In this document: one piece after another, positions 3,525 through 26,978 of the stretch
Layout: every line of letters begins with the position of its first letter
Position numbering within the stretch: the first letter of the stretch is position 1
Virus record (IMG/VR): IMGVR_UViG_3300009168_000097
Location: 1-27,070 of that record
Strand: one strand, 5' to 3'
Length of the DNA: 27,070 nucleotides
Source: a virus
The notes under the pieces: generated by a model
Told to the model about the DNA's origin: nothing
The model's database searches: none
What the model saw: only the letters and a program-made list of their open reading frames with translations
Made by a program: the position numbers and the translations under genes

Positions 3525-3525
3525 T

Positions 3526-4568: not shown

Positions 4569-4743
4569 TACCAATCAATTTTAACGCCTGTTTGTAAACT
4601 TCTTTTAATTCTTTTTCGTCATAAATTCCAATTGATTTATAATGTTGGATGAATTCACCCTCTAAGGGGAATTGTTTTAAAGTAAGGGCGGCATTTATTG
4701 CGCCGCCCTTAAAATAAATACATCCGTTTTTAATACTTACCAC
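4483..4743 (-). CDS. hypothetical small tail-module protein
   Basis: An 86-residue protein. The first 60 residues look like a normal globular domain (aromatic and aliphatic residues, ending in EVYKQALKLIGND). The last 26 are polar and basic and are read out of frame across the start of the next gene. It begins five bases after the major tail protein stop. In phages of this layout a tail assembly chaperone can sit here, with a longer product made by frameshifting into the overlapping ORF. That would require a +1 or -2 shift and is not demonstrated. No known domain is recognised. Confidence 0.6.
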   Translation of the reverse strand: MVSIKNGCIYFKGGAINAALTLKQFPLEGEFIQHYKSIGIYDEKELKEVYKQALKLIGNDDICAKSPANKSRKHSGTNKTGISKAN

Positions 4744-4747
4744 TTGA

Positions 4748-5710
4748 TTAGGTGTATGCGACTGTTATGGTATTGCTTTCATAGCCATTGTTCGGAGTGC
4801 CCCCAATTCCAGCGGCTGCCAAAACAGTCGGAGTATCCAAACTAAGATAATGAGAAGCACTTAATGATGCATGAGTAATTACAGCCGTTCCCACTGTATC
4901 GGTGCCTGTTGGAGCTGTGTAAACAATTCCTGAAGGAACAACGTCCGCACCACCTGCCACCGGGTATAACCTCCAATTTGCAGGGGTTTCGAGGGCTGTT
5001 TCGTAAGCTGCTGAAATACCGAACATGTCAATTGCACCGTAAGCAGTCGTTAATTTAACTGTTACAGTAGTGGCATTGTGAGCAGTTTCCAAAATGGTAA
5101 CATCAACGATTCCCTTTACGGTTTTCATCACATCAACTGAACATTGCATAAACAATAAATCATCAGCTAATTCGGTAACATCATCCCACACAAGATTAAT
5201 TCTGTATTTGTTGACCTCTGAACCAGTAGCCATTTTTGGGAAAAAGATATTAACCGTCCCTGTAAATGGTTTTAAAACCCCTGTTGAATCGGTTGTGCCA
5301 ATTACCTGGTTATATTCATTAACCAGTAAAAACCCCATTGACCGTTCGTTAAATTTGCGAAGGTTTTTGTTTAGCTCATGACCGCCTTTCATAAATTCGA
5401 AAGTCAAATCAATTGATCCATCGTCTGCGAACCGGACAACTCCGTAATCGCTTGTGGTCTTTTCAGGATCGCTCGAATTATCTGTAGGATTATCCAAGTT
5501 TGCAATAGGGTATATTCTTCCAGTTCCTACCACTAATGAAGCGGCTGCCAATGCAGTTATAAATAAAGCTGAAGTTCCGCAATTGGTAGTACTAACTGAA
5601 AATGTAGGATCTGCCAAAATTATACCTATAATCTTCCCTATGTTAAATTCCTGCGAAGGCACCCCGGAATTTCCGCCAGCTGTCCTCGCTGTTAAAGTGT
5701 TTGCTGCCAT
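4748..5710 (-). CDS. major tail tube protein with C-terminal Ig-like extension
   Basis: A 320-residue protein that I take as the tail tube subunit. The N-terminal ~210 residues are beta-rich, containing RIYPIANLDNPTDNSS, a GSIDLTFEFMKGG segment, and internal strands ending in VDVMKTVKGIVDVTILE. About 110 more residues follow, rich in Thr, Ala and Val, resembling the Ig-like (Big-type) surface domains often attached to major tail and capsid proteins; those domains decorate the tube surface and may hold carbohydrate. The gene lies between the connector gene and the tape measure with an 18-base gap upstream. The assignment is from order, length and composition. Confidence 0.8.
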   Translation of the reverse strand: MAANTLTARTAGGNSGVPSQEFNIGKIIGIILADPTFSVSTTNCGTSALFITALAAASLVVGTGRIYPIANLDNPTDNSSDPEKTTSDYGVVRFADDGSIDLTFEFMKGGHELNKNLRKFNERSMGFLLVNEYNQVIGTTDSTGVLKPFTGTVNIFFPKMATGSEVNKYRINLVWDDVTELADDLLFMQCSVDVMKTVKGIVDVTILETAHNATTVTVKLTTAYGAIDMFGISAAYETALETPANWRLYPVAGGADVVPSGIVYTAPTGTDTVGTAVITHASLSASHYLSLDTPTVLAAAGIGGTPNNGYESNTITVAYT

Positions 5711-5728: not shown

Positions 5729-6250
5729 TTAAATTCCAAATTGATTTATGTACTTAAAATAATTTTCTGAATGATCATAATCCGGATAAGTTGAAGCATT
5801 AGCAATAAGCCAATCATGTACCTCGCCAAACATATCTACCATGTGATTCCACGAAGCACAAAGCTGTTCAGTGTCATCAATCGTAACCATGCCAGCCGGG
5901 ATAGTTTTCACCGGGTTGTCAGTGTTAATAATTGAACCTCGATGAAACTTAACCCAATACCACCAAATATAGCCCGCAATAGGGCTTTTAAAATTGGTTG
6001 CATCGATTAGTTTATTTTTCAAAGCCGTATACTTAGCTGTGCCAGCTGTCACCCCTGCAATAAATAGGTTATAAAAATTATCAGTTTCATCTTCATTGTA
6101 TCCTAAAAATTTCTTCAAACATTCCGTTTCGTACCTGGTAATATATTGGTCAATGTCTTGACGGTATGCTAAATTATCCTGAGTTGTACGGTTTAACGGT
6201 ACAATTTCCCATTGATCAATGAAATATTGATAATTTAAATAGTTTGCCAT
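5729..6250 (-). CDS. putative head-tail connector / head completion protein
   Basis: A 173-residue protein rich in aromatic residues (MANYLNYQYFIDQWEIVPLN at the N-terminus, a GYIWWYWVKFHRG segment in the centre). It is mainly alpha-helical, with a short loop-like stretch near the C-terminus. The family is common in Bacteroidota siphophages between the capsid and major tail genes, where other siphophages carry the Gp6-like adaptor that joins portal to tail. It starts after a three-base gap from the preceding small gene. The connector role is inferred from position and size; no motif is diagnostic. Confidence 0.65.
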   Translation of the reverse strand: MANYLNYQYFIDQWEIVPLNRTTQDNLAYRQDIDQYITRYETECLKKFLGYNEDETDNFYNLFIAGVTAGTAKYTALKNKLIDATNFKSPIAGYIWWYWVKFHRGSIINTDNPVKTIPAGMVTIDDTEQLCASWNHMVDMFGEVHDWLIANASTYPDYDHSENYFKYINQFGI

Positions 6251-6253
6251 TGT

Positions 6254-6466
6254 TTACTTCTTTTTATAGCCTTTTCTTATTGCCTTTTTTATTACAGGGG
6301 CGTTAAGTTCTTCCAGTGCGATCTCAGTTTTTTTGATTTCCAAAGGTTTAACCGTCTGTTTTTCTACTATCTTATTGTTAAGTAAGCAGGAAATCATAGG
6401 ATTTGGAAGGGTGCAAATGTCACCCTCCCGAAACCTTAGATAATCTTTTATGAATACATAAATCAT
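6254..6466 (-). CDS. hypothetical small head-module protein
   Basis: A 70-residue protein of unknown function with a hydrophobic N-terminal half containing FREGDICTLPNP and a strongly basic C-terminus ending KKAIRKGYKKK. It lies three bases upstream of the connector gene and six bases downstream of the signal-peptide gene, so it is clearly part of the head operon. The basic tail could contact DNA or an acidic partner. Confidence 0.65.
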   Translation of the reverse strand: MIYVFIKDYLRFREGDICTLPNPMISCLLNNKIVEKQTVKPLEIKKTEIALEELNAPVIKKAIRKGYKKK

Positions 6467-6472
6467 AAGAAA

Positions 6473-7090
6473 TTAGTATTTTTTAAATAGTTTCACAGTA
6501 AAAGAAACAACCTTTACGCCTGTTCCAACGCTATCATCTCCAAGAATTCTGAATTTAATATTCAAATATCTGTAATAGCTTGTCAGGTAAGTAGGTGTAA
6601 AAGTATAAGTCATAGCAGCTCCGGTGTATTGCAGACAGGCATCAGGCGTAACTGAGAATTTAGTACTATCCCCAGTAAATACCTGAGTACCTGAAACCAG
6701 CGTATAAGCATCAGTTGCATTCATGACATATCCATAAATAGTTGTGGTAACGGCTGCCGAAAGTGAATCTGTAGGATCAAGACATTTAATGGCCGTCCAG
6801 TCTTCGCTGGTTGAATTACGCCCTTCAATGTCAATCATTACAGTTGTATCATTTCCAGCCCTTTTATTCAAGGCGTATTCAACCCAAATCCTATAACCGC
6901 AATCTAATGAAGTCATCAAAGGATAAGAACGAATATCAACAGTACCACCATTGAGGGTGTCCTTTGCGGTTCCAGTATAGGTATAAACCGTTTGATCTTT
7001 GGTAAGATAAATAAGGTCAGCGGTTACAGTCTGCGCACCAAGCATTGATACAATGCTTACAAATGCTAATAAGAAAAATAATTTTTTCAT
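6473..7090 (-). CDS. exported protein with Sec signal peptide inside the head gene cluster
   Basis: A 205-residue protein beginning with a textbook signal peptide: Lys2-Lys3, a hydrophobic core (LFFLLAFVSIVSML), and a small-residue cleavage site around Gly18-Ala19-Gln20. The mature part is Thr-rich and probably beta-sandwich, with Tyr-Tyr-Arg and strand-like repeats near the C-terminus. It begins 18 bases after the major capsid gene and is co-transcribed with it. Phage head proteins are normally not exported, so an envelope role (changing the receptor, blocking later phages) fits the leader better than a capsid role. A decoration protein with a hydrophobic N-terminus is the alternative. The function is unknown. 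Confidence 0.8.
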   Translation of the reverse strand: MKKLFFLLAFVSIVSMLGAQTVTADLIYLTKDQTVYTYTGTAKDTLNGGTVDIRSYPLMTSLDCGYRIWVEYALNKRAGNDTTVMIDIEGRNSTSEDWTAIKCLDPTDSLSAAVTTTIYGYVMNATDAYTLVSGTQVFTGDSTKFSVTPDACLQYTGAAMTYTFTPTYLTSYYRYLNIKFRILGDDSVGTGVKVVSFTVKLFKKY

Positions 7091-7107
7091 TGTTTTACCC
7101 TCCTTTA

Positions 7108-8319
7108 TTAGCTTAATTGTAATGCATTGATAGATGCCTGAACAGTACCGTAAATAAACGCTTTGGCATCGGTTTTTGCCACAAAGTGAGTACAGAATAA
7201 TTCACCAAGGATAGTAACCTTATTAGTGGTTAATCCGGTGTAAGGATCCACGTATATTTCAAAACCACCTTGTAAAGCGATGTTTGATAACATATACTCA
7301 CCAAGCTGGAAGGTGTCAGCTGTGATCTGTGCAGTTTCAACGATTGGAACACCTGCTACGAACATCTGACCATTTGAGAAAATGGCTTCCGGTGCATTGA
7401 TCTGATTAGCAATTACTGCCAATCTTAAACCGGCTGCATCTGATGGGTTTAGATAAATCCTTGAGGGATTGAAATTTTCAGCCCTGGCCTGTGCAATACC
7501 GATAATCAAAACATCGTATAAACAAGGCTTAACAATCTTATTCGCCCAATTTCCTGCACTCCATGCGGTTGCAAAGGTTGCGATACCTTTCATAATCGGA
7601 GAAACGCCCGAACCCTCCAGAACCTGACTTGATGCTTTTTCATAAACTTTTTTCATCAAGCGGGTTTTAATCATGTTTTCAAGGTAGGGCAGGTTTTTCA
7701 TCATGTTTCTCGACACTGTAATGTAAGCATTAACAGGCAAAATAACATATTGAGTACCATATACATTGAAATCATACTGTTCTTTTGCAGAACCTTCAGT
7801 AGTGCGAGCAGCTCCGCCCTCTTCAGAATCCTGGGAAACATCGGTAATAATGCCTTCGGTTGATTGGAATACATTATGACCACCGTCAAAAGCTACTGCA
7901 CCCGGTATTCTGATTTCAGAAATAGGGGTTAATAATTGCGGCTGCGCTCCGGTTCCGGTAACGTTGTTACTGGTTGACATATCGCCAACGGCTTTGATTT
8001 TAATACGCTCGCCAAGTTCACGTTTTTCAATTTGCTCAGAAAGTTGTTTAACACCTGCACTCAGTTCTTCCTTGAACCTTCCAACCAAAGTGATTGATTT
8101 TACTTTCATTTCTGCAAGTTCTGCGCCCTGTTTAACAGCGGCTTCCCGGACTTCTTTTAATCCGGTTTCGATGCCAGTGATTGATTCGGTAACTTTTACC
8201 AAATCTTCTTTCCCGGCTGATTTCGTTTTTAAATCTTCAATCAAAGTTTCAACACCTTTTATTTTCGTGTCTACTTTGTTTGTGATTTCATCAACGATTT
8301 TTTTATCGTTTTCTTCCAT
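7108..8319 (-). CDS. major capsid protein, HK97 fold
   Basis: A 403-residue protein. Residues 1 to about 105 form a charged coiled coil (the delta or scaffold domain), which the adjacent protease would be expected to remove. The junction (VGDMSTSNNVTGTGAQ) is a likely cleavage zone. The rest matches HK97-type capsids: an N-arm and E-loop region (EGSAKEQYDFNVYGTQYVIL), a helical spine with LMKKVYEKASSQVLEGSG, and the late A-domain segment with GVPIVET. HK97-fold capsid proteins self-assemble into the icosahedral shell. It follows the protease gene with a 20-base gap, the normal order portal-protease-capsid. Confidence 0.92.
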   Translation of the reverse strand: MEENDKKIVDEITNKVDTKIKGVETLIEDLKTKSAGKEDLVKVTESITGIETGLKEVREAAVKQGAELAEMKVKSITLVGRFKEELSAGVKQLSEQIEKRELGERIKIKAVGDMSTSNNVTGTGAQPQLLTPISEIRIPGAVAFDGGHNVFQSTEGIITDVSQDSEEGGAARTTEGSAKEQYDFNVYGTQYVILPVNAYITVSRNMMKNLPYLENMIKTRLMKKVYEKASSQVLEGSGVSPIMKGIATFATAWSAGNWANKIVKPCLYDVLIIGIAQARAENFNPSRIYLNPSDAAGLRLAVIANQINAPEAIFSNGQMFVAGVPIVETAQITADTFQLGEYMLSNIALQGGFEIYVDPYTGLTTNKVTILGELFCTHFVAKTDAKAFIYGTVQASINALQLS

Positions 8320-8339
8320 TTTCTTTTTTACTTTTTAAA

Positions 8340-9035
8340 TTAAAACTTTATTGAATTTGAAACCTCATTCCAGTTTATCCTTTGCGGCTTTTGATCTTGA
8401 GTGGTTTCCCGGCTCTTTTCAATAAGTGCTGTAAAATGGTTTTTCAGGTTTTCTATTTTTTGTAAATCAAAATCTTTAAATTGACAGTTTAAAAGTAGGT
8501 TATAAAATTGTTCTTCTTTCATCAGTTCATCAATTGAATAGTCCTCAAACATTGATTTTAAAGAAACTGTCTTTGCTCCTGGGTTCATTGCGAAGGTTGT
8601 TAAGGTTGAAACCTCTACTAAGAAGTTTTCAGTATTATAAGTAATCCCGGCTTTTTGATAATTTTTTACAGTGATCTCACCTACTGAGTGACGAACATTG
8701 CGCCCTAATTCAGCAGACTTTTTATAATATTCATATACAAATTTACCTTGTTCTGTTTCCAAAAGTAGATGTGATTCACAAAGTAATCCGTAATTATCCG
8801 GCGTAATTGATTTCAAAACTCCGGGAACTAAGTTTTTATCATGGTTGAGATAATGTTGTATTTCACCAAAGTTTTCAGATAGGTTTTTATTATAGGAATC
8901 AGGTAATTCTACCTCTTTAGAACGGTCAACGTTATTAAAGGCAGCCCCGTAAAAGATTACAATTCCTTTTTCGTCAATATCTTTGACCTGGCCGTCAAAT
9001 GACTTATATTTGATTGGCCGTTCCCTGAGTTCCAT
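8340..9035 (-). CDS. HK97-type prohead maturation protease
   Basis: A 231-residue serine protease of the U35/HK97 prohead protease family that cleaves the capsid scaffold domain. Visible features are an opening beta strand and FYGAAFNNVDRSKE, the catalytic His65 in YLNHD, the catalytic Ser117 in RHSVG, and the family segment EVSTLTTFAMNPGAKTV near residues 150-168. About 60 further residues form a helical tail. The first 32 bases overlap the end of the portal gene in another frame, so the two are translationally coupled. Confidence 0.92.
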   Translation of the reverse strand: MELRERPIKYKSFDGQVKDIDEKGIVIFYGAAFNNVDRSKEVELPDSYNKNLSENFGEIQHYLNHDKNLVPGVLKSITPDNYGLLCESHLLLETEQGKFVYEYYKKSAELGRNVRHSVGEITVKNYQKAGITYNTENFLVEVSTLTTFAMNPGAKTVSLKSMFEDYSIDELMKEEQFYNLLLNCQFKDFDLQKIENLKNHFTALIEKSRETTQDQKPQRINWNEVSNSIKF

Positions 9036-10326
9036 TTTCGTTTGTTTTTGATTTTATCCCTATATTTATTAAATCAGTTGCCTCTTGCAAGTCATAATCA
9101 TAATAAGTATAAAGGATATTTATTTTTTGTTCATCGCTCAAACCAGGCGAAGTAATAACAGATATAACAGCGTCACTTATTGCCTTTGCTGTGTCCGCCT
9201 TCTCTTTTTCGCTTGTCTGTAAAGCTTGCACGTGATCAAATTCGGCACAAATATAATTTGTACCCATTCTCAGTTTGCCGGTTAACCAGCTATAAAATGA
9301 GTTGTTATAAGGGATTACATTGTTCTGATATAATCCCTTCTCGGCTTCGCTTACATTGTTATAAGTACTGTTATTTTTAAAACCAAGTAAATACATGGGA
9401 TAGCCTAAAGAATCGCAAAGCTGCCTTACATCATCTTCAATCTCTTCAAATAAAAGTAAATCCCTTGTTGAAAATCCCATTGCAGTCCATTGAAGCGAAG
9501 CCTTTGAAATGATTACTTGCTTTTTATCCCTGCTTAATCCGTAACCATTTAGATTATCCTGTATGCGATCACCTTCTTCCGGTGTAACAGGGAAAGCATT
9601 AATCCCTGTTGATGCACTATTTAATATTCCTTTAGGTCCAGTATTTTCCATTAACGTCCTTCTGGCTTCCATAGCTGTCAGGATGTTGTTAATAGTACTA
9701 TCCAAAGAATACAGCAAAGAACGGCCCCGGATTGGGTCTAAATCATTTGGTACTGAGTTTTTATAGTGCCAAAGTTCATCCGGTTGTAATTTTAATATTT
9801 CTGTTTTGGTGTCAATTTGCCAATATAAAACAGGGTTTTCTCTGAACCATTGCGAAGCTATTCCAGTTTTGTAGAAAGGTTTTATGATCCAATTGGGGAT
9901 AAGAAATAATTGTAAATCTTTGAAACCTATTGATTTTAAAGGGTAAATAAATACTTCGCCAAAGGTGTAAAAATACTGATCTAATTGTTCTTTAAATGAT
10001 TCCCATGATTGAAGCGGGTTGGGTTGCTTTAAAATGGATTGAATGAACTTAATATCCATTCCAGTTGCCTCTTGTCCGTTCTTATCTTCAATATATACTT
10101 TAGCGTTTGCGCTTGCTTTGGCTATCCTTTGAATAATGGCAGCCACCGGACCGCAATACTTATAAGCGTATAATTGGCCCTCAACGGTCTTACAATCGTT
10201 ACTTACTGAATATCCAGAATCGGATAGATAAATAAAGTTTTTTCCGCTTGCCAATTTAGCCAGCGATCCCGTGCCGTTAACGTCTTTTTTTTTGATTAAA
10301 AATGGAGAGCGAATAGTAAAATCCAT
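9004..10326 (-). CDS. portal protein (HK97 portal family)
   Basis: A protein of about 440 residues that forms the dodecameric DNA gate at one capsid vertex. Recognisable stretches are the wing/stem region with DPIRGRSLLYSLDSTINNI, the GPKGILNS segment, and the clip/stem region DLLLFEEIEDDVRQLCDSLG followed by PMYLLGF and the NNVSEAEKGLYQN helix, all typical of the PF04860-type family. I chose ATG at 10326 (MDFTIRSPF). An in-frame TTG at 10347 exists, but it lies inside the -7 element of the promoter and would precede the transcription start. The promoter at 10345-10376 makes this the first gene of the structural operon. Confidence 0.93.
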   Translation of the reverse strand: MDFTIRSPFLIKKKDVNGTGSLAKLASGKNFIYLSDSGYSVSNDCKTVEGQLYAYKYCGPVAAIIQRIAKASANAKVYIEDKNGQEATGMDIKFIQSILKQPNPLQSWESFKEQLDQYFYTFGEVFIYPLKSIGFKDLQLFLIPNWIIKPFYKTGIASQWFRENPVLYWQIDTKTEILKLQPDELWHYKNSVPNDLDPIRGRSLLYSLDSTINNILTAMEARRTLMENTGPKGILNSASTGINAFPVTPEEGDRIQDNLNGYGLSRDKKQVIISKASLQWTAMGFSTRDLLLFEEIEDDVRQLCDSLGYPMYLLGFKNNSTYNNVSEAEKGLYQNNVIPYNNSFYSWLTGKLRMGTNYICAEFDHVQALQTSEKEKADTAKAISDAVISVITSPGLSDEQKINILYTYYDYDLQEATDLINIGIKSKTNENGTQGTANQI

Positions 10327-10344
10327 TTTAGAATATATTTTGTA

Positions 10345-10376
10345 CAAATGTAAATCATATTTTAATACAATACAAA
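10345..10376 (-). promoter_or_regulatory. Bacteroidota-type promoter of the structural operon
   Basis: On the minus strand a TTTG (10373-10376) is followed by 20 bases and TACATTTG (10345-10352), which matches the Bacteroidota housekeeping consensus TTTG / TAnnTTTG. Transcription should start near 10339, leaving a leader of about 13 bases before the portal ATG at 10326. It lies just downstream of a palindromic operator-like site and a terminator. Confidence 0.75.
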
Positions 10377-10388
10377 ATATATTTTTTT

Positions 10389-10402
10389 ATGATGTATATC
10401 AT
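10389..10402 (-). promoter_or_regulatory. operator-like palindrome, portal promoter
   Basis: The site reads ATGATGTATATCAT, followed on the plus strand by GTTTTAAA. It is one of the copies of the dispersed ATGA-N6-TCAT motif. Its centre lies about 50 bases upstream of the inner edge of the portal -7 element, between terminator and promoter. Binding by a phage regulator is inferred. Confidence 0.6.
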
Positions 10403-10419
10403 GTTTTAAAATGAGGTAA

Positions 10420-10445
10420 TAAAAAACCCGGCTATTAAACCGGGG
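10420..10445 (-). terminator. intrinsic terminator ending the lipoprotein operon
   Basis: On the minus strand a GC hairpin, CCCGG - TTTAATAG - CCGGG (10427-10444), is followed directly by six T residues. It lies about 100 bases after the stop of the gene at 10548 and just before the operator and promoter of the structural operon, so it separates two transcription units. Confidence 0.85.
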
Positions 10446-10547
10446 AAAAAACTTAAACAAATAGATCGTGTATCAATTTATTTATTTGTTTTTATATAGC
10501 AGTGTCTTTTGATCAGAAAGGCTTACTATTAATATCAACTTATAGGT

Positions 10548-10895
10548 TTACTTTTCCTTTGGCTCCTTTTTTACTTTGTGTATAAATTCAATAAGTCTGT
10601 TTGCTTGTACGTCTGCCATTTTCATGTATGTTTCGGCTCTTATTACTTGAATAGGATTAGCATCTCTAATCATTGCGTAATATGCATTTATTAAATCTTC
10701 TTTGGTAAATGACAAAACAGGATGTTCATTTCCGTAATCGGTTTTAGTATTTAAAAGCATATTCATCGCATCATTACCAAGTTTTAATATCTCAGTTAAA
10801 TCATTCTGTTTTTCAAGTTGTTCAACCCGTTTTAAAAGTTGTTTAATGTCTGTTTTATGACATTCAAATCTATTTTCAATATCTTTTATTTCCAT
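10548..10895 (-). CDS. hypothetical coiled-coil protein
   Basis: A 115-residue, highly charged, helical protein. Residues 1-45 have heptad character (DIKQLLKRVEQLEKQND), and the remainder (LINAYYAMIRDANPIQVIRA) is helical, ending in KKEPKEK. It is the last gene of a three-gene operon with the lipoprotein and the DUF4177-like gene, and is followed by an intrinsic terminator. No family is recognised. Confidence 0.65.
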   Translation of the reverse strand: MEIKDIENRFECHKTDIKQLLKRVEQLEKQNDLTEILKLGNDAMNMLLNTKTDYGNEHPVLSFTKEDLINAYYAMIRDANPIQVIRAETYMKMADVQANRLIEFIHKVKKEPKEK

Positions 10896-10910
10896 ATCTT
10901 TACTTTTTAA

Positions 10911-11141
10911 TTATTTACACTCGTTTCTTGAATAAGCCACTAATACACCATTCTCATGATATTCAACCCTGGGTTTACTTTCCCAATAGTCTGCATCGGT
11001 CGGGCTGCAAACTTCCCATTGTTTGATAACTTGCGGTGTCGTGTCAAGGGAATACATAATTGTCCGGCATGTTTGGCAGTCCTCTTTTTTCTCACAGGAA
11101 AATAAAAGGAATAGGAATGATAAAAATAGTAGTGTTTTCAT
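10911..11141 (-). CDS. phage-encoded lipoprotein
   Basis: A 76-residue protein with a type II signal peptide. Lys2 precedes a hydrophobic core, and the lipobox LFSC places the lipidated cysteine at residue 16. The mature protein is only about 60 residues and contains further cysteines (CQTC, C in the centre, C near the end) that could form disulfides in the periplasm or at the surface. The charged residues right after Cys16 (EKKED) resemble those found in Bacteroidota surface-exposed lipoproteins, though that is tentative. Small phage lipoproteins commonly serve in superinfection exclusion or, less often, as outer-membrane spanins; the isolated operon argues for the former. Confidence 0.8.
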   Translation of the reverse strand: MKTLLFLSFLFLLFSCEKKEDCQTCRTIMYSLDTTPQVIKQWEVCSPTDADYWESKPRVEYHENGVLVAYSRNECK

Positions 11142-11144
11142 AAT

Positions 11145-11357
11145 TTAGGATTTAGGTCTTTTAAAATAAAAATAATAGTTAATTCCTGACATATATCTAT
11201 TCTCAATAATTTTTATTAATTCCCATCCTTCCGCACCAAAACAATTTAACTCATCGGTGCTTTGGAAACCATTAATCACAATATATTCCCATTTCTGAAT
11301 AGTTGGAATCCACTCCAATGGTAAAGTAGATGTTTTAGGCTTTACTTTTACTGACAT
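11145..11357 (-). CDS. DUF4177-like small protein
   Basis: A 70-residue protein with the DUF4177 pattern: KWEYIVINGF, then ELNCFGAEGWELIKII, and a final strand ending in FYFKRPK. The family's biochemical role is unknown; members are small alpha/beta proteins found in many bacteria and phages. It is the first gene of the operon that also encodes the lipoprotein, and it has its own promoter with an adjacent palindrome. The gap to the lipoprotein gene is three bases. Confidence 0.75.
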   Translation of the reverse strand: MSVKVKPKTSTLPLEWIPTIQKWEYIVINGFQSTDELNCFGAEGWELIKIIENRYMSGINYYFYFKRPKS

Positions 11358-11379
11358 ATCATTTCGGTTTAGTTATCCA

Positions 11380-11387
11380 CAAATTTA
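11380..11387 (-). promoter_or_regulatory. promoter -7 element of the lipoprotein operon
   Basis: TAAATTTG on the minus strand is a perfect TAnnTTTG match about 23 bases before the ATG at 11357. The -33 position has only ATTT/AATT, which is weak. The palindrome centred about 37 bases upstream may therefore be where an activator compensates, although repression is equally possible. Confidence 0.6.
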
Positions 11388-11410
11388 CAAAATATTTTCC
11401 ATTCTAAATT

Positions 11411-11424
11411 ATGATATTCGTCAT
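11411..11424 (-). promoter_or_regulatory. operator-like palindrome, lipoprotein operon
   Basis: The site reads ATGATATTCGTCAT, the best copy of the dispersed motif, followed on the plus strand by GTTTAAACATGATG, which adds a second inverted half-site. It lies in the 88-base gap between the terminase stop and the DUF4177-like gene. Confidence 0.65.
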
Positions 11425-11445
11425 GTTTAAACATGATGTAGTTAA

Positions 11446-12657
11446 TTACCATAATCTATCTTTTTGACTTAAAATATATCTACAACAATCGATAAAATGA
11501 TCATTCCCTCCCAATGGTTCTGGTAAAATATTACCTTCCTTATCAATTTTATGCACATAGTTTTCCATTTCATTAATGCCATTCTTTGACCGAGATGTCA
11601 AATGTATTTTGTAGCTTTTCATCATTTTTAAACTGTCAAAAATACCAGGCTTTTGTACTGCTAAAATATTAAATCCCTTCATTCTTAATTCCATTATACT
11701 CTTTGGCTCTGCGCTGTCTGCTACTATCATTTGTGACTTTGGAAAACCTATTGTATTTAACTCCTCCTCAATAGAAAACCCGGTCCCCAGTTCTATATTT
11801 GTCAAATTCTGCTTATAAATTCGTTCATCAAAATATACCGAATCACCTAAAATATAGCAGTCAACCAAAACAGTAGGATCAGGATTAAAACCAAAGTCCA
11901 TTCCTGAAAGTATCCTTTTTGCATTTGCCGGGATAGTGTCAACTACTGACCAATTTTTAAATATTAGCCGCTCTGTTAATATTCCCCATTCGCCAAGGCA
12001 ATAGATTTTATAGTCGTTTTCGTCAATATATTTAAGGTTTTCGAGTTGCTCAATATCTTCTTTGGTTAGAAATTGATTATCCATGTAGCTACATTTAACA
12101 ATGTCAGTATCTTTGCGTATCATTTCATTATCAAAGAAATGTTTTTTAATCCAATGAAGATGTGAGATAGGATTAAAAACAAGTATTATTTTAATGTTTG
12201 GAATACCTCTTAACCTTCTGTTTATTTCCAAAAAGTCATCTTTTGTAAACTCCGTAGCTTCCTCAAGTAAGGCAATACGAATGTTAACAATAGACTTTAG
12301 TTTTTCAGGATCGTCAACCCCTGATAAAATAATACGTCTGTCGTTTTCTTTGTTTACTATTTCTAATGGAGTCTTTTTAAACTCTAAAATATCATTAAGT
12401 TGCCAATCTTTAGCAAGTTTTTTTAACCCCTGAAAAACAGAATTGTAAATAGTCGATCCTATTTTTCTAAAAATGATTATATCGCTTTGATGTTTGTTAT
12501 TGAAAAGTTCGATTAAAAGAAGTTGATATAATGTGAAGGACTTTGCCGAACCTGAACCGCCATAGATAATAGTAAACCTATTTTGTGATAAATAAGCCGG
12601 GCAAATCTTATTATAAGCCTTTGCAAAATACTTTTTATTTACTGTCTGCGTTATCAA
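11446..12657 (-). CDS. terL: terminase large subunit
   Basis: A 403-residue packaging motor of the Terminase_3 (PBSX-like) group. The ATPase has a Walker A of GGSGSAKS (residues 33-40), an unusual Ala in place of Gly before Lys, and a Walker B with catalytic acid in IALLEEATEF (128-137). The C-terminal RNase H-like nuclease domain begins at GMDFGFNPDPTVLVDC, continues with VADSAEPKSI, and ends with the metal-ligand segment GGNDHFIDCCRY. The first 23 bases overlap the small-subunit gene. After it comes an unusual insertion: a separate three-gene operon lies between terminase and portal. Confidence 0.95.
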   Translation of the reverse strand: MITQTVNKKYFAKAYNKICPAYLSQNRFTIIYGGSGSAKSFTLYQLLLIELFNNKHQSDIIIFRKIGSTIYNSVFQGLKKLAKDWQLNDILEFKKTPLEIVNKENDRRIILSGVDDPEKLKSIVNIRIALLEEATEFTKDDFLEINRRLRGIPNIKIILVFNPISHLHWIKKHFFDNEMIRKDTDIVKCSYMDNQFLTKEDIEQLENLKYIDENDYKIYCLGEWGILTERLIFKNWSVVDTIPANAKRILSGMDFGFNPDPTVLVDCYILGDSVYFDERIYKQNLTNIELGTGFSIEEELNTIGFPKSQMIVADSAEPKSIMELRMKGFNILAVQKPGIFDSLKMMKSYKIHLTSRSKNGINEMENYVHKIDKEGNILPEPLGGNDHFIDCCRYILSQKDRLW

Positions 12658-12937
12658 CCGGGGGGAGTTCTAAATTTAATCTGTTAATACCTATATCGCC
12701 TTTTATTTCAGTCCTTGCAAGTTTCGGGATGACATATTCAGATAATTCAGATATTACATGAATAGCCTTTGCGGGATCTTCGTCTGCAATTTTCTGCAAC
12801 CAGATAGTCATGTTTTCCAGGTTCATTTCAATAAGGTTTTTATAGGCTGTCTTAATATCCCTGGTAACCGTATTTATGTCACCTTTTTTCTTTAAGGGTT
12901 CGTGCCCCTTTTTAAAGGTAGTTTTATTCTTTCCCAT
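12635..12937 (-). CDS. terS: terminase small subunit (putative)
   Basis: A 100-residue protein with a basic start (FKKGHEPLKKKGDIN) and a helical core (IKTAYKNLIEMNLENMTIWL, then AIHVISELSEYVIPKLART). This resembles the short small-terminase proteins of Bacteroidota phages that recognise the packaging site. The overlap with terL and the dedicated promoter right upstream support the call. It is shorter than many small terminase proteins, and a helix-turn-helix is not obvious, so the assignment depends partly on context. Confidence 0.75.
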   Translation of the reverse strand: MGKNKTTFKKGHEPLKKKGDINTVTRDIKTAYKNLIEMNLENMTIWLQKIADEDPAKAIHVISELSEYVIPKLARTEIKGDIGINRLNLELPPVDNADSK

Positions 12938-12956
12938 AATTGCCCATTATTTATGG

Positions 12957-12987
12957 CAAATTTACGCCAAAATTAGCAATTTACAAA
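12957..12987 (-). promoter_or_regulatory. consensus promoter of the terminase genes
   Basis: On the minus strand TTTG (12984-12987), exactly 19 bases, then TAAATTTG (12957-12964). Both boxes match the Bacteroidota consensus fully. Initiation is expected near 12951, about 14 bases before the small-terminase ATG. No operator palindrome is nearby, unlike most other promoters in the window. Confidence 0.8.
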
Positions 12988-13157
12988 TTAAAATTGTCAA
13001 AGTCTTTTAAAACCAAACCAATGAAAAAGATAATATTTAACAACATAGCTATTGACAAAGCTATAAAATCTTCAAAAAATTTAGTATTATAAAAAAGTAA
13101 TAATAATATTACATAAAAAGGAAATATTATAAGTAAATATCCTATAATCTTTTTCAT
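12981..13157 (-). CDS. 58-residue two-pass membrane protein
   Basis: This small gene starts at ATG 13157 and stops at 12981. The protein is almost entirely two hydrophobic helices (YLLIIFPFYVILLLLFY, then IALSIAMLLNIIFFIGLVL), separated by NTKFFEDF and ending in KDFDNFNL. The size and topology would fit a holin or a small membrane effector, but no lysin gene is next to it, so no function is assigned. It starts 11 bases after the gene at 13169. Its stop codon touches the terminase promoter. Confidence 0.65.
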   Translation of the reverse strand: MKKIIGYLLIIFPFYVILLLLFYNTKFFEDFIALSIAMLLNIIFFIGLVLKDFDNFNL

Positions 13158-14880: not shown

Positions 14881-15069
14881 TTATAAATTTTCAATCCTTT
14901 TATTCCACTTCTCATTAATGCTTTTATAAATAATATCATCTTTCCTTTGCCAATTAATTGCAAGTAAAATTATAACAAACAAAATAAACATCATTAATCC
15001 AAATATACAGAATCCTGGGTTTTGGTCAATGAACTGAAAAAACTGATTCATATAAAAGGTTGTTTTCAT
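14881..15069 (-). CDS. one-pass membrane protein at the end of the CDP-ribitol cassette
   Basis: A 62-residue protein with one strong transmembrane helix (FGLMMFILFVIILLAINW, about residues 23-41), an N-terminal stretch rich in Phe and Gln, and a charged C-terminal tail (KDDIIYKSINEKWNKR). Its ATG overlaps the stop of the CDP-ribitol synthase gene by four bases, so it is translated together with that enzyme. It could tether or assist membrane steps of the glycan modification. A holin-like role is an alternative. Confidence 0.7.
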   Translation of the reverse strand: MKTTFYMNQFFQFIDQNPGFCIFGLMMFILFVIILLAINWQRKDDIIYKSINEKWNKRIENL

Positions 15070-16421
15070 AATATATTTTTTTTAATATTTATTACTTGCC
15101 CCGTGAGATTACTTAACAATACCGATAATGATTTTTTTGCCACTACTTCAGGACTTAAAAGGCTTTCTTCTGGTTCATTACTGAAATGTTTTATTCTCAT
15201 TGGTGTTTTTGTACGTTCTGGACAAATACAATTCACTTTAATATCATATTCCTTCCATTCCTCAGCTATTGCCTGGGTGAAATTAACAACAGCCGCTTTA
15301 CAAGATGAATAAATGCTATATTGAGAACGTCCCCGCATATAGGAACTTGAGGTAAAAAGCAATAATTGTCCTTTCGATTCTTTAAGATATTCGAATGATT
15401 CTTTGGCAATATTGATATTTCCTGTATAATTGGTGTGAATCATTTCATGAATAGTATAGTAACTTGTTTTTATCAAGTCATTTATATGAAGTATAGCAGC
15501 CGTATTAATAACATAATCAATCCTTCTAAATTCAGAATGAACAAATTCTAATTCAATATTTATAGATTCTTTATTAATAATATTAATTTGATTTCGACTA
15601 AATGAAATTACTTTTGCCCCGTTAAGAATAGCAAGTCTTTTTATTTCTAATCCTATACCGGAATTCCCGCCAAAGATTATTATAACCTTATCCTTTAAAT
15701 TTTCTAAAGGCATTTCATTGATTAATTCATATTGCTTTAGCTGAAAAAGTTTATCAGCAGTAAACAAATCAATATCATAGGTTATCTTGATATTGTTTTC
15801 AGATCCGTTGACTATGTAAATTGGTTCATTAGGAAGGTACTTTTTAACCACGGAGCAATCATCAGTTAATTTAAAATCATAGTCATTCAATGCCAAATCG
15901 TATGCTTTTTTAATAGTTTCAATTTTAAAACCTTGCGGAGTCTGGCCCCTTCTCAATAATCTTCTTTCAGGTATTGATTTAATAATATTTTCATCTATTT
16001 CAATTACGGTGTCAGTTGGAATAATGGCTACATCAACAGCGTTATAATGTTTTAAGGCTTCGATAACATCATTTATAATTTTGTCAGTTACAAACGGCCT
16101 CACAACATCATGGAATAGGATATTATAATCAGGATTATTTCTGTAATAAAGAATAGCTTTAAGGCTTGAAAGGTTCCTGGTTTTACCGCCCTTTAAAACC
16201 TTTTTAACCTTTGTAAAATTGTTTGCTTCGATTATTTTCTCAGATTCTTTTATATAACCGGGATGCATAACCACAACAATCTCATTGATCAATTCATTGT
16301 TTTGAAAAACCTCTAAAGTATGTTCTAATATTGTTTTGCCAGCTATTCTAATAAACTGTTTTGGTATATCGGAATTTAACCTATATCCATTACCACCGGC
16401 AAGTATTACGGCTATATTCAT
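15066..16421 (-). CDS. bifunctional CDP-ribitol synthase: cytidylyltransferase-reductase fusion
   Basis: A 451-residue two-domain enzyme. Residues 1-235 are an IspD/TarI-type cytidylyltransferase: LAGGNGYRLNSDIPKQF (7-23, nucleotide loop), DVVRPF (105-110), TPQGF (161-165), and DD near 187. Residues 240-451 are a short-chain dehydrogenase: GGNSGIG (251-257), NTAA (306-309), Ser359/360, and the catalytic pair Tyr371/Lys375 in YSIYSSCKAA. This architecture matches Bcs1 of Haemophilus influenzae, which reduces ribulose 5-phosphate to ribitol 5-phosphate with NADPH and then makes CDP-ribitol from CTP. IspD alone would not carry the reductase. It overlaps the transferase gene by four bases (ATGA), so product and user are made together. 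Confidence 0.88.
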   Translation of the reverse strand: MNIAVILAGGNGYRLNSDIPKQFIRIAGKTILEHTLEVFQNNELINEIVVVMHPGYIKESEKIIEANNFTKVKKVLKGGKTRNLSSLKAILYYRNNPDYNILFHDVVRPFVTDKIINDVIEALKHYNAVDVAIIPTDTVIEIDENIIKSIPERRLLRRGQTPQGFKIETIKKAYDLALNDYDFKLTDDCSVVKKYLPNEPIYIVNGSENNIKITYDIDLFTADKLFQLKQYELINEMPLENLKDKVIIIFGGNSGIGLEIKRLAILNGAKVISFSRNQINIINKESINIELEFVHSEFRRIDYVINTAAILHINDLIKTSYYTIHEMIHTNYTGNINIAKESFEYLKESKGQLLLFTSSSYMRGRSQYSIYSSCKAAVVNFTQAIAEEWKEYDIKVNCICPERTKTPMRIKHFSNEPEESLLSPEVVAKKSLSVLLSNLTGQVINIKKNIL

Positions 16422-17557
16422 TTTGTCAAAAATTCGTGAATTCTTTTGCAGTTATTTTGATCGTGATATAAATAAAAATTATCAATCATTTTTTTATTAT
16501 TCATTATTCGATATTCCAAATATAATGAAATACTATCAATTAAATCAAATTGATTTTTTATACACCACTCGGTAAAATTTTTATAGTCAAATAATAATCC
16601 TTTAGATTTTTGATACTTTTCGAGATCATAAGGAATAAATATAATAGGCTTATTAAATGGCAGAAAATCAAAAAATACTCCAGAATAATCAGTTATCAAA
16701 ATGTTAACAAAAGGTAATAATTCAACAATATCAGGGAAAACAGATTGATCAGCAAGTATTATTCTTTCACTTAAAAACGGCTTTACATTATTAATTTCTT
16801 CTTTGTGGCATCGGAGTAAAATAACCGCATCCTGTTCATTTAAAAAATCATTAATACACTTCAGGTTAAAATCATCAAATGGGAAAAACTTAGTTCCATA
16901 ATTGCGCCATGTCGGAGCATAAAGGATTACTTTTTTATTCAGATAATCATATTTACTTTTGGGCTTTGGCCTGTGTGTTGCTTTAAAAATAACATCATTG
17001 CGTGGAGAACCTGTTATTAAAATATTATCAAATGAAATATCAAAAGCTGATTTTAAAATGAACTTCTCGATTGTACTGCTGCAAGTACAATAAGTATATT
17101 TCTGTAATAACTTCGATTTAAACCAGATATTAAATTGTTTTGTAAGTTTTCCTATGCGTTTCATTGGTATCCCATGCCCTAAATACACAATGTTTTTCTG
17201 TTTTGAGTTTAAAAAATATGGAAAGAACTCGGTTTTACTTGTGCCATAAGAAATGATAATTGTTTTTGACCTTAAAAATATTAATAAACCTTTGAACGAT
17301 AAGTAATAATATGCTTTGCCTGGATATGTTTGTTTCATTTTCAGGTATAAGGATTTATTTTTTAGCAGTAAAATTGAATTTGTATCATTTTCATTAATCA
17401 TATATTTAAAAAGATAACGGGAATTATCATAAAATACGGCTTCAGTATGAAAAAATAGAATGATATTTTTATCCTTTCTCACAAAATTTAGCAGGGTAAA
17501 AAGTATATTTTGCAGGGGTGAAACTATCAATACCGTTAATATTTTTTTGATACTCAT
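16418..17557 (-). CDS. CDP-glycerol/CDP-ribitol polyol-phosphate transferase (TagB/TagF/TarL family)
   Basis: A 379-residue single-domain glycerophosphotransferase (PF04464 type), close to TagB in length and shorter than TagF. Family motifs are GHGIP (127-131, catalytic His128), ITGSPRND (181-188), YAPTWR (213-218), LLRCHKEE with His251, and TDYSGVFFDFLPF (289-301) followed by KPIIFIPYD. These enzymes move a polyol phosphate from a CDP donor to a lipid-linked or glycan acceptor at the membrane. The start is hydrophobic (IKKILTVLIVSPLQNILFTL), which suits monotopic membrane attachment. The adjacent synthase would supply CDP-ribitol, so ribitol-phosphate transfer is the best guess. The acceptor is unknown: host surface glycan, capsule, or virion. 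Confidence 0.88.
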   Translation of the reverse strand: MSIKKILTVLIVSPLQNILFTLLNFVRKDKNIILFFHTEAVFYDNSRYLFKYMINENDTNSILLLKNKSLYLKMKQTYPGKAYYYLSFKGLLIFLRSKTIIISYGTSKTEFFPYFLNSKQKNIVYLGHGIPMKRIGKLTKQFNIWFKSKLLQKYTYCTCSSTIEKFILKSAFDISFDNILITGSPRNDVIFKATHRPKPKSKYDYLNKKVILYAPTWRNYGTKFFPFDDFNLKCINDFLNEQDAVILLRCHKEEINNVKPFLSERIILADQSVFPDIVELLPFVNILITDYSGVFFDFLPFNKPIIFIPYDLEKYQKSKGLLFDYKNFTEWCIKNQFDLIDSISLYLEYRIMNNKKMIDNFYLYHDQNNCKRIHEFLTK

Positions 17558-17721
17558 AATGGAAATTTTTTATCGTTTTCAAGTTCTATTATCCTGTTTT
17601 CAAGTTCGTTTATTTTGGCAATCAAAATGTCTGTGATAATATTCACATCATTTTTCATTCCGTTTTTTCCGTTTAATTCCTTAGCTTTTAAAATAGCTTT
17701 TTCAAGTTCTTTGAAGTCCAT
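17554..17721 (-). CDS. 55-residue coiled-coil protein
   Basis: A small gene from ATG 17721 to TGA 17554. The peptide is a helical coiled coil (DFKELEKAILKAKELN at the start, AKINELENRIIELENDKK at the end). Its TGA overlaps the transferase ATG (ATGA), and its start lies inside the end of the upstream membrane-protein gene, so the cassette is continuous. Short coiled-coil proteins of this kind are common in Bacteroidota phages and have no known function. A bridging role for the membrane partners is a guess. Confidence 0.65.
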   Translation of the reverse strand: MDFKELEKAILKAKELNGKNGMKNDVNIITDILIAKINELENRIIELENDKKFPL

Positions 17722-17882
17722 AATTTTAGTATTAGTTTTTCAATCAAATGATAAATTCCCATAAATGAAATAAGCAAAATAACCAGACCAAAGAAAAATA
17801 TTGGCACAATCCAACAATTCCAAAGAATCCAAAATTTAGAAACCTTTGACCATTCGGTGTAACGAATTCCATTGTTAATCAT
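17688..17882 (-). CDS. small membrane protein of the CDP-ribitol cassette
   Basis: A 64-residue protein with a long hydrophobic central segment (WNCWIVPIFFFGLVILLISFMGIY), one helix or a tight hairpin, followed by a basic tail (KLWTSKNLKKLF). It overlaps the upstream membrane gene by four bases and the coiled-coil gene by 34 bases. No family is recognised. Confidence 0.65.
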   Translation of the reverse strand: MINNGIRYTEWSKVSKFWILWNCWIVPIFFFGLVILLISFMGIYHLIEKLILKLWTSKNLKKLF

Positions 17883-18193
17883 AGCTTATCAATATTTAAT
17901 CGAATGTGACGTATGTTTTCTTTCATTTCCCTTATTGCCGGATTTGTTTCGCTCAAATGGTTTTGCTCGTTTTCCTTAATTTTTAGCCGGGTGTCAACCC
18001 ATCCAATGAAACCCAGGACCAGAATATACAGGACAAACCAGAAAGGGATATAATACCAAGCCAAATAAGCAGACCAATTGAAATACTTTGCAGCTGCCAA
18101 AACGACAATAAACAGTTGTATTTTTGAAGCATAGCTTTGCGCCCGGTCTGCATAGACTTTGAAGCGGGCTAAGGTTTTAGAAAGGTTTTTCAT
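17879..18193 (-). CDS. two-pass phage membrane protein, first gene of the cassette operon
   Basis: A 104-residue protein. A basic amphipathic N-terminus (KTLARFKVYADRAQSYASK) precedes two hydrophobic helices (IQLFIVVLAAAKYF and YIPFWFVLYILVLGFIGW) and a charged C-terminal coiled coil ending in HIRLNIDKL. The layout resembles small membrane proteins found in many phages, sometimes called holin-like, but I cannot assign lysis because no lysin is seen. It is the first gene after a palindrome-bearing promoter region and is coupled by ATGA to the next membrane gene. Confidence 0.7.
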   Translation of the reverse strand: MKNLSKTLARFKVYADRAQSYASKIQLFIVVLAAAKYFNWSAYLAWYYIPFWFVLYILVLGFIGWVDTRLKIKENEQNHLSETNPAIREMKENIRHIRLNIDKL

Positions 18194-18270: not shown

Positions 18271-18585
18271 TCATAAATATTTAATTTCCATTGTCATTTT
18301 AAAAGTTAAACCACAATCTTCCTTTTTTGGAAAATCATTAGTTGTAAAAAAACGAACTAAAAGTAAACCTAAATCTGAACCATCATTCCAAAACCAACTT
18401 TCACAATCATTAACATTTACGCATTTAATTCTCGGGAATTTCTTTTGCAGTTCATCTTCTAAATCAAAAAAATTTAATCCAACTCTTTCAAAAACTCTTT
18501 CAGTTATTACTCTTTTCTTTTCATCGAGTAAATTCATAGTTAATTTATTTATTGCTTCATACAAATGATCATGCATATTTTCCAT
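18271..18585 (-). CDS. hypothetical protein
   Basis: A 104-residue alpha/beta protein with no recognised family. Notable stretches are VFERVGLNFFDLEDELQKKF and ESWFWNDGSDLGLLLVRFFT in the centre, with a beta-strand C-terminus (FKMTMEIKYL). It is ten bases downstream of the DnaA-like gene and shares its transcript. The overlapping plus-strand frame is a shadow. Confidence 0.6.
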   Translation of the reverse strand: MENMHDHLYEAINKLTMNLLDEKKRVITERVFERVGLNFFDLEDELQKKFPRIKCVNVNDCESWFWNDGSDLGLLLVRFFTTNDFPKKEDCGLTFKMTMEIKYL

Positions 18586-24603: not shown

Positions 24604-26916
24604 TTAAAAAAGAGTTAGTTGTCCTTTTTCTTCATAGGCTGCATTATGGTTTCTTTTATTGATCTCAAAGTAACTTTCTTTTAACTCAATAGAAATACTT
24701 TTACGCCCCATTTTTAAAGCCTGGTAACCCTCTGATCCAATACCTCCAAATGGACTTAAAACAGTTTCTCCGGTATTAGAATAAAGTAAAATTATCCTTT
24801 CAATAACTTGCAGTTGAAGTGGGCATATATGTTTTTCATCATTTTGACCTTTGGCGTTCATCCATTGCAGGGTATTAGTACTATCAATATCCATCCAAAT
24901 TGGGGATGCATACCTTTGCCAAACCTGATGCGAGTATTGTTCTAATCTTGAATATTTACTTTCAGGATCAAAGCCCCAAAACTCATTAAATCCCTCCTCG
25001 CTTTTTGGGAATGTATCAAATTCATGCATCGGAATATAATGAGTAAATCGTATATCATCCAATTGAATTGGAATTTGATTTTCTTCTTTGGTTTTAAAAC
25101 AAAGTACCTTATCAGGAATACCACATCTAATAATACTCATATCCTTTGTAACTTGCTTATGGGCTAATCCTATTGTTTTAGTTCTTACGGCTGCCAATAA
25201 TGGATCTTTCCAGATAGTAAATTCAGAATGCAAAAACATATCGAATTCCTCAAACATATTAGCAATCATATCTGGAAATCTTTTAAAACCGATATATCCA
25301 TCCCGGCTTTTTAAAGTAGGCAAGTTCATGCAATGTACTGCAATTATTCGCCCTGGTTTTATTACCCTTTTCAATTCAGCAACTAAATATCTGAACTGAG
25401 CGACAAATTGATCGTAATCAACTACATTGCCCATATCTTCAATATGGTTTGAATAGGTATAGAGGTCTGCAAATGGAGGACTAAACATGATTAAATCTAC
25501 TGATTTATCACTCACTTCTTTTATCCTTTGTACGCAGTCACCACGCATAAGCCAGTATTTGTCATTTTTGGCATCTATTGATTTTTCCATTGATGTAGTT
25601 ATTTGATTGTTAATATTTTTAGTTACTGCCTTAGTCATTAACTTTTGCATTGTAGTAAAAGAAATATGCTTATCCCTTTGAATTTTTATTACATTAATCA
25701 TTCTGTCAGTTGAAATCATATAACAAGTTACTACTTTAGTTTGCCCATATCTCCATGATCTACGAATAGCCTGGTAGCTTTGTTCAAAACTGAAATCAAT
25801 AGAATTAAAAATCTGATAGGCACAATTCTGAAAATTTAATCCCATCCCTGCAATGGATTGTTTTGATATTAAAATCTGATATTTTCCATGAGCAAAATCA
25901 AGTAAATCAGTTTCCTTTTTTTCAGGTGAATCCGAACCTTGTACATTTCTGCAATCAATACCGAGTGATATTAATTTTTTATAAATGTTTTTTGCTTCTT
26001 CATTTTGTTTTGTCCATACTATTATTTGTTCATCTTTTGGCAGTCCGGTTATAATCTGGATTGTTTCATTTATTCTTTGTTTTTCAGTATCTCGCAAACT
26101 TTGATTATAATCAGTTGCATTAACCGCTAAACCTGCGAATAATTGACCTTCAGGCAAAGGAGTTGATACTTGCCTTTCGATTATTTTTAATTCTGGCAAA
26201 TCAAATCCGGGCATATCAAAACCTATATCTTTTGGATGAGAATACATAATAGCCCATGATGAAACAAACTCATAAAATTTATCTACTGCATGACCTTTTA
26301 AACGCCATTGCTGCGTTTCATTCGTGTCATGTACAAAGAACATTGCAAGCATTTCATTAAAGGTCATCACATCAAGGAACTGACTATGGTTTCCTAATTC
26401 CATTGGATCATTTGGGCTTGGAGTAGCTGAAAAACAAAATTTATAAGGAATATTTTTAAATTTCTCCATTAATAAATTCCTGTATTTCCCTGATTCATTT
26501 TTTAAAATACTACTTTCATCAAGGCATATACAACAAAATTGATCTTCTTTTACGTGTTCCAATTGTTCATAATTGGTAATGTAAATACCAGCCCCAAATA
26601 CATCGCTTTTAAGCCGTTCAACTTTGGTGTTAAACTTTATACCTTGCTCAATAGTTTGCCCTGATACCGCCAAAGGAGAAAGGATTAATGCGGGTTTATT
26701 GAATCGAGTTGTTATTTGGTTCGCAATTTCTAATTGCATCGGAGTTTTACCCTGGCCTGTATCTGCGAAAATTGCATATTTCCCGGCTCTTAAGGCTCTT
26801 TTAACAGTAAACTTTTGAAATTCAAATAACATAGGATTTAATTGATTCATGTCAATATCAAATCCTGATTGAATAACTGTCTTTTCTTTTTGCTTTAAAA
26901 ATTCCAAATAATCCAT
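24604..26916 (-). CDS. Snf2-like helicase fused to a DNA N6/N4-methyltransferase
   Basis: A protein of about 770 residues with two enzymes. The first ~430 residues are an SF2 Snf2-type ATPase: Walker A DTGQGKT (52-58), DESS (133-136), SAT (163-165), and C-terminal motifs VWTKQNEEA, SIAGMGLNFQNC and QAIRRSWRYGQ. The rest is a DNA aminomethyltransferase with the catalytic motif SPPF near residue 478 before the cofactor motif SPFGGIGSEGYQ near 725, the beta-class order. Translocation along DNA may feed methylation; this could protect phage DNA from host restriction. No nuclease domain is seen. ATG 26916 is chosen because the earlier frame start at 26958 overlaps the promoter. Confidence 0.9.
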   Translation of the reverse strand: MDYLEFLKQKEKTVIQSGFDIDMNQLNPMLFEFQKFTVKRALRAGKYAIFADTGQGKTPMQLEIANQITTRFNKPALILSPLAVSGQTIEQGIKFNTKVERLKSDVFGAGIYITNYEQLEHVKEDQFCCICLDESSILKNESGKYRNLLMEKFKNIPYKFCFSATPSPNDPMELGNHSQFLDVMTFNEMLAMFFVHDTNETQQWRLKGHAVDKFYEFVSSWAIMYSHPKDIGFDMPGFDLPELKIIERQVSTPLPEGQLFAGLAVNATDYNQSLRDTEKQRINETIQIITGLPKDEQIIVWTKQNEEAKNIYKKLISLGIDCRNVQGSDSPEKKETDLLDFAHGKYQILISKQSIAGMGLNFQNCAYQIFNSIDFSFEQSYQAIRRSWRYGQTKVVTCYMISTDRMINVIKIQRDKHISFTTMQKLMTKAVTKNINNQITTSMEKSIDAKNDKYWLMRGDCVQRIKEVSDKSVDLIMFSPPFADLYTYSNHIEDMGNVVDYDQFVAQFRYLVAELKRVIKPGRIIAVHCMNLPTLKSRDGYIGFKRFPDMIANMFEEFDMFLHSEFTIWKDPLLAAVRTKTIGLAHKQVTKDMSIIRCGIPDKVLCFKTKEENQIPIQLDDIRFTHYIPMHEFDTFPKSEEGFNEFWGFDPESKYSRLEQYSHQVWQRYASPIWMDIDSTNTLQWMNAKGQNDEKHICPLQLQVIERIILLYSNTGETVLSPFGGIGSEGYQALKMGRKSISIELKESYFEINKRNHNAAYEEKGQLTLF

Positions 26917-26948
26917 AATATCAAAGTTTAGTTTATGTAAAAGTATAT

Positions 26949-26956
26949 CAAATATC
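26949..26956 (-). promoter_or_regulatory. promoter -7 element of the helicase-methylase gene
   Basis: GATATTTG on the minus strand is a seven-of-eight match to TAnnTTTG, 33 bases before ATG 26916. A variant palindrome is centred about 36 bases further upstream. Confidence 0.5.
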
Positions 26957-26978
26957 AATATGAATTTTAAAAAATACG

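Follow-up and report, generated by a model that had tools for sequence, protein, structure and literature searches.

A cytidylyltransferase-reductase fusion coupled to a TagF/TarL-type transferase in a phage contig: a putative CDP-ribitol cassette

Background

Phages are known to alter the surface sugars of their hosts by the addition of glucose or acetyl groups and by changing polymerases. IspD/TarI-type enzymes, together with reductases, make several CDP-pentitols, among them the arabinitol derivative associated with the pneumococcal Abp proteins. The closest described system for the locus considered here is that of Haemophilus influenzae type b (Hib), in which Bcs1 is an established CDP-ribitol synthase acting from ribulose 5-phosphate, NADPH and CTP; the chemistry of Bcs3 is also established (PMC10299916). 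Among phages, gene 151 of SP-15 is annotated as a CDP-glycerol glycerophosphotransferase and lies in a base-modification gene cluster (PMC5977210). No published report of a phage module of the present kind (CDP-ribitol, LicD, ispD) was found in the open-licence PMC literature.

The window analyzed is the whole 27,070-base virus record IMGVR_UViG_3300009168_000097, classed as linear; the contig is a fragment. Two of its ORFs had been singled out in a preliminary description as a possible ribitol-phosphate pair, and both are present and intact where that description had placed them (Table 1).

Table 1. Coordinates of the pair, of the ORFs coupled to it and of comparable loci in other viral contigs.
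Record	Feature	Coordinates	Strand	Remarks
Window	104-aa membrane ORF	17879..18193	minus	first gene of the coupled chain
Window	64-aa single-pass membrane ORF	17688..17882	minus	coupled upstream; ATGA with 104-aa gene, 34-nt overlap with 55-aa ORF
Window	P0004, 55-aa charged ORF	17554..17721	minus	stop overlaps P0002 start by ATGA
Window	P0002, predicted CDP-polyol phosphotransferase (Glyphos_transf, PF04464), 379 aa	16418..17557	minus	
Window	ATGA overlap, 4 nt	16418..16421	minus	P0002 stop/P0001 start
Window	P0001, cytidylyltransferase-reductase fusion, 451 aa	15066..16421	minus	
Window	62-aa single-pass membrane ORF	14881..15069	minus	ATGA-coupled downstream of P0001
L005	fusion, methyltransferase, remote PF04464-like protein	1871-4862		short phage contig; directly before terminase and portal
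L098 (IMGVR_UViG_3300032053_000025, 88.6 kb)	IspD-SDR fusion, LicD/glycosyltransferase protein	9965-13146		second gene 2 nt on
L109	fusion, LicD gene	5349-7236		genes overlap
L111	fusion, LicD gene	5995-8547		one gene apart
L099 (344-kb viral contig)	IspD-like gene without reductase, near LicD gene	9992-11556		
L113 (464-kb viral contig)	IspD-like gene without reductase, near LicD gene	6001-9671		

Gene order and phage setting

The pair lies within a chain of overlapping genes that runs from the 104-aa ORF through the 64-aa and 55-aa ORFs, P0002 and P0001 to the 62-aa ORF, each junction being an ATGA except for the 34-nt overlap between the 64-aa and 55-aa ORFs. The overlap of P0002 with P0001 is the ATGA that had been reported earlier. 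P0004 is an orphan, without counterpart in the loci compared, and the 104-aa and 62-aa membrane ORFs each gave zero matches among phage records. Upstream of the pair, on the same strand, are genes for a helicase-methyltransferase, an ERF recombinase, a DnaD-like helicase loader and a DnaA C-terminal-like protein; downstream, again on the same strand, are those for terminase, portal, head protease, capsid and tape measure. This arrangement is best explained by an accessory ("moron") cassette that entered a tailed-phage genome between its replication genes and its terminase, and the ATGA chain of small phage ORFs, together with phage genes on both flanks, argues against a chimera.

The host is probably a member of the Bacteroidota, as suggested by the portal, for which phages of Polaribacter and Cellulophaga are among the best matches (below two unassigned gut contigs), and by the helicase, whose best matches are Flavobacterium columnare phages at 44%. 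The major capsid protein matched nothing in 198 Labilibaculum-order genomes, a negative that, with no positive control, is uninformative. At 24604-26958 of the window, a DNA helicase fused to an N6/N4 DNA methyltransferase is 76% identical to that of another phage (L103), whose other genes are largely unlike those of the window, a pattern of modular exchange.

A scan of viral sequences with the single TerL protein found no relatives. Four contigs (L114-L116 and L121) carry structural genes that are similar to and collinear with those of the window, and the pair is absent from 13 related phage contigs comprising these and other portal or helicase relatives, many of them fragments. In one (L116), other cargo occupies the interval from the DnaA-C-like gene to the terminase. 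The absence of the pair from related phages marks it as acquired cargo. No integrase, repressor or other lysogeny gene was recognized in this fragmentary contig, so that lasting conversion of the host is not supported. Neither a flippase nor a polymerase nor a glycan-targeting gene was recognized adjoining the pair, and the window ORFs scanned (some small ORFs lay outside the scan, and the contig is a fragment) had no Pfam or PHROG match to a GtrA-like flippase or GtrB-like lipid-sugar synthase.

The fusion protein P0001

P0001 is laid out as a cytidylyltransferase of the IspD/TarI type (residues 1-229) followed by a short-chain reductase (residues 240-450), with Pfam matches to PF01128 at residues 3-224 (1.1e-43) and to PF00106 at residues 245-415 (9.2e-29). 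The motifs and residues named in the preliminary description are all there: PKQF, with K21 within it, GGNSGIG (G251/G255/G257), and Tyr371 and Lys375. Loss of catalytic residues would have counted against a working enzyme, and none is seen among those checked; R14, K21, D105, R108 and K212 of the cytidylyltransferase and N331, S358, Y371 and K375 of the reductase are kept. With both domains in a single chain, IspD/TarI then SDR, P0001 is by architecture a putative Bcs1-type CDP-ribitol synthase, in agreement with its first reading.

The profile scores point the same way, by narrow margins. P0001 scores 169.1 against a cut-off of 166 for NF001183, the NCBI model for D-ribitol-5-phosphate cytidylyltransferase, and 175.3 against 181.3 for TIGR00453 (ispD), with other ispD equivalogs also below their cut-offs. 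The best solved-structure sequence match of the domain is 4jis, deposited as a ribitol-5-phosphate cytidylyltransferase. A ribitol-type rather than an IspD/MEP-type enzyme is thus supported at the level of sequence, on narrow margins, and the product would most likely be CDP-ribitol, with CDP-arabinitol or another CDP-polyol also possible. Should CDP-arabinitol or another pentitol be made and transferred, the surface-modifying role proposed below would be the same; stereochemistry is not fixable from sequence, and the NF001183 cut-off is exceeded only slightly. This variant is nevertheless considered unlikely, given that the ribitol model is passed where the IspD equivalogs fail, that Foldseek places TarL with CDP-ribitol first, level with TagF, for the partner transferase, and that the nearest characterized fusion is Bcs1.

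In a genome scan the fusion had at least 559 relatives, the best being 55-58% identical and mostly in Bacteroidota. In a quick tree, a long branch of its own (0.85 substitution) leads to P0001, which falls with Marinifilaceae and Marinilabiliaceae (SH-aLRT 91). Its overall identity to the consensus of the bacterial set is only 60%, but of the 102 positions at which 97% or more of that set agree it keeps 98, which argues against decay and is as expected for a working enzyme.

The transferase P0002

P0002 matches PF04464 over its full length (residues 20-377; 4.4e-57; 194.1 bits against a Pfam gathering score of 22.1) and begins with a hydrophobic or amphipathic, membrane-type helix at residues 3-26. 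The GHGIP motif (H128), TDYSG and the second His (H251), as first described, are all found. H128 and H251 align with the WHGTP-loop His (H444) and the RMH His of TagF, and H128, H251, D290 and S292 are invariant among 19 homologues. An AlphaFold model of P0002 (pLDDT 83.7, pTM 0.85; an earlier model from 6 sequences, pLDDT 60.7, was set aside) superimposes on TagF with Z 31.4 over 358 residues (rmsd 3.7), on TarL with CDP-ribitol with Z 31.2 and on the Hib polymerase Bcs3 with Z 29.2; the next fold is at Z 18.2. Foldseek likewise ranks TarL, TagF and Bcs3 foremost. The model thereby supports a GT-B-like transferase of the TagF/TarL/Bcs3 fold, and the TagB/TarL-type assignment of the preliminary description holds at the level of fold. 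By equivalog scores P0002 is far below the TarF, TarL and TarB cut-offs (92.2 versus 550, 79.6 versus 1000 and 39.1 versus 500), and it is therefore to be regarded as a PF04464 family member but as none of those named enzymes.

Bacterial relatives and origin of the pair

The nearest relatives of P0002, 41-44% identical, are in Labilibaculum, Marinifilum and Ancylomarina; among 295 genomes sampled from the class, only one (G001) had a strong match, a lower bound from a search that was not fully sensitive. Four Marinifilaceae loci (L007, L009, L011 and L015) carry, one after another, a P0002-like gene, another PF04464 gene and the fusion. Horizontal acquisition of the pair, from surface-polymer genes like those of the Marinilabiliales, is supported by these sequence comparisons, the nearest homologues being those of Marinifilaceae and Marinilabiliaceae and the related phages lacking the pair. 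Transfer had been proposed earlier from AT-richness, and that argument falls away: the two genes have 30% and 26.5% GC, and adjoining phage genes are equally AT-rich (27.7% for the DnaD-like gene, 25.7% for a 104-aa ORF at 18271), so that composition is no evidence of transfer.

In one of the Marinifilaceae loci (L007:2759-10356) the order is YfhO, PF04464, PF04464, IspD-SDR fusion and polysaccharide pyruvyl transferase, with a polysaccharide flippase a few kb away, an organization that suggests a teichoic-like polymer in Bacteroidota. In Parabacteroides distasonis (L002:10979-14276, NZ_OY725790.1, listed as a plasmid) a capsule-type locus contains the fusion with LicD as its neighbor. A further candidate relative from a plasmid collection (H62) was rejected as an ordinary chromosomal ispD-ispF region.

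The fusion in other viruses

The pair had been called unusual for a phage. This stands insofar as the related phages lack it and phage GenBank records contain no full-length fusion, only separate-domain matches; some of the latter, on unannotated Staphylococcus, Listeria and Enterococcus "phage" contigs, look like host DNA. It does not stand for viruses at large. Single-protein viral scans with P0001, and a viral scan with a transferase alignment (A2), found no relatives, but alignment scans of IMG/VR revealed four further viral contigs in which the fusion lies near a polyol-phosphate transferase (L005, L098, L109 and L111; Table 1); these scans rely on exact short peptide matches, and the counts are therefore lower bounds. 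With four further viral contigs carrying the fusion beside a transferase, the combination is a recurrent viral theme and not unique, the arrangement of the window itself being found in this contig only.

The four fusions are only 28-38% identical to P0001, and all keep R14, K21, D105, R108, K212, N331, S358, Y371 and K375. In the tree they form deep branches separate from P0001 (L098/L109/L111 and L005), with long branches that make exact placement uncertain. The partner is PF04464-like in L005, as a remote relative (hhalign probability 94%, E 1.2e-7), and LicD in the other three. In L098, the LicD/glycosyltransferase protein is followed by more glycosyltransferases and a PIG-L deacetylase, which together make up a large viral glycan cluster. 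In the two contigs with an IspD-like gene without reductase, the LicD gene is adjacent or about 2 kb off. PF04464 and LicD are two unrelated kinds of polyol-phosphate transferase, and by analogy such viral pairs would resemble the animal ISPD-fukutin route. It may be, and this is offered tentatively, that unrelated bacterial viruses have repeatedly captured the fusion, paired with either transferase; ribitol-phosphate decoration would in that case be a general and so far overlooked viral strategy, possibly acting on virions and not on host glycans.

Proposed role and alternatives

The reading favored here, with moderate confidence, is that the cassette makes CDP-ribitol and modifies the surface glycan of the infected host, altering the phage receptor or excluding competitors. 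From family and architecture, the C-terminal domain of P0001 would reduce ribulose 5-phosphate with NADPH, and the N-terminal domain would activate the resulting ribitol 5-phosphate with CTP. The polyol phosphate would then be transferred, at the inner membrane, onto a host surface glycan; we infer as acceptor the host's own lipid-linked capsule, O-antigen or teichoic-like glycan. The extra charged group gained by the surface polymer could change the phage receptor, such that the infected cell is shielded from competing phages or progeny are freed from rebinding. The module had been described as complete in two steps, and activation plus transfer are indeed both encoded; the second transferase of the bacterial locus is missing. 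Since only one of the two Marinifilaceae transferases is present, it seems more likely that a polymer already made by the host is capped or given side branches than that a new one is built.

Alternatively, the pair might place ribitol phosphate on glycans of the phage's own capsid or tail proteins, affecting stability or adhesion. This role would be in keeping with the location of the pair, which has packaging and structural genes downstream in the same orientation, and with L005, in which the fusion and PF04464-like gene directly precede terminase and portal. Virion decoration is judged rather improbable here, since P0002 has a membrane-type N-terminal helix, its nearest relatives are in bacterial surface-polymer loci, and no protein glycosyltransferase was recognized in the window. 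That the pair is passenger DNA, either a bacterial fragment captured recently and with no role in the phage or a chimeric assembly, could be argued from its absence from the 13 related contigs and the uniqueness of the exact arrangement; undamaged frames, small orphan ORFs ATGA-coupled on both sides, phage genes to either side in the same orientation and near-invariant positions retained on a long branch make it very unlikely. Transfer of a polyol phosphate to modified bases, as proposed for SP-15, whose gp151 does occur among the viral fold matches of P0002, is considered highly unlikely, as that match is weak (TM 0.33), no thymidylate synthase, hydroxymethylase or similar was recognized among the genes scanned in this fragment, and the closest relatives of P0001 and P0002 are bacterial glycan genes.

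If the cassette does modify the host surface, it would be self-sufficient, able to turn a central metabolite into an activated polyol phosphate and to attach this with no need for a pathway in the host, and the surface-modification repertoire of phages would gain a new charged group. The fusion occurs, with one or other of two kinds of transferase, in five or more viral contigs, which makes a systematic search possible.

Comparison with known systems

The three activities predicted for the phage pair, reductase, cytidylyltransferase and ribitol-phosphate transfer, are those of TarJ, TarI and TarL of wall teichoic acid synthesis. TarI and TarJ are separate proteins, whereas both activities would reside in P0001, and TarJ belongs to a different reductase family. 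Among phages, gp151 of Bacillus phage SP-15 is likewise a phage gene for polyol-phosphate transfer, but a single one, with a proposed role on DNA and no paired CDP-ribitol module; the glycerol-3-phosphate cytidylyltransferase of roseophage CRP-6 represents polyol-phosphate activation by a phage, also as a single gene and from another cytidylyltransferase family. In the Labilibaculum and Marinifilum loci, strand and order are the same as in the phage, at the identities given above for transferase and fusion; these are loci of bacterial chromosomes, with a second PF04464 gene between transferase and fusion and with YfhO and pyruvyl transferase neighbors. Hib Bcs1 resembles P0001 in architecture, with cytidylyltransferase and reductase in one protein, and its CDP-ribitol feeds the CroT domain of Bcs3, a ribitol-phosphate transferase of the P0002 fold (PMC10299916). 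The Hib genes form a bacterial capsule locus with a three-enzyme polymerase, whereas the pair described here is phage-borne and its transferase is a single-domain protein.
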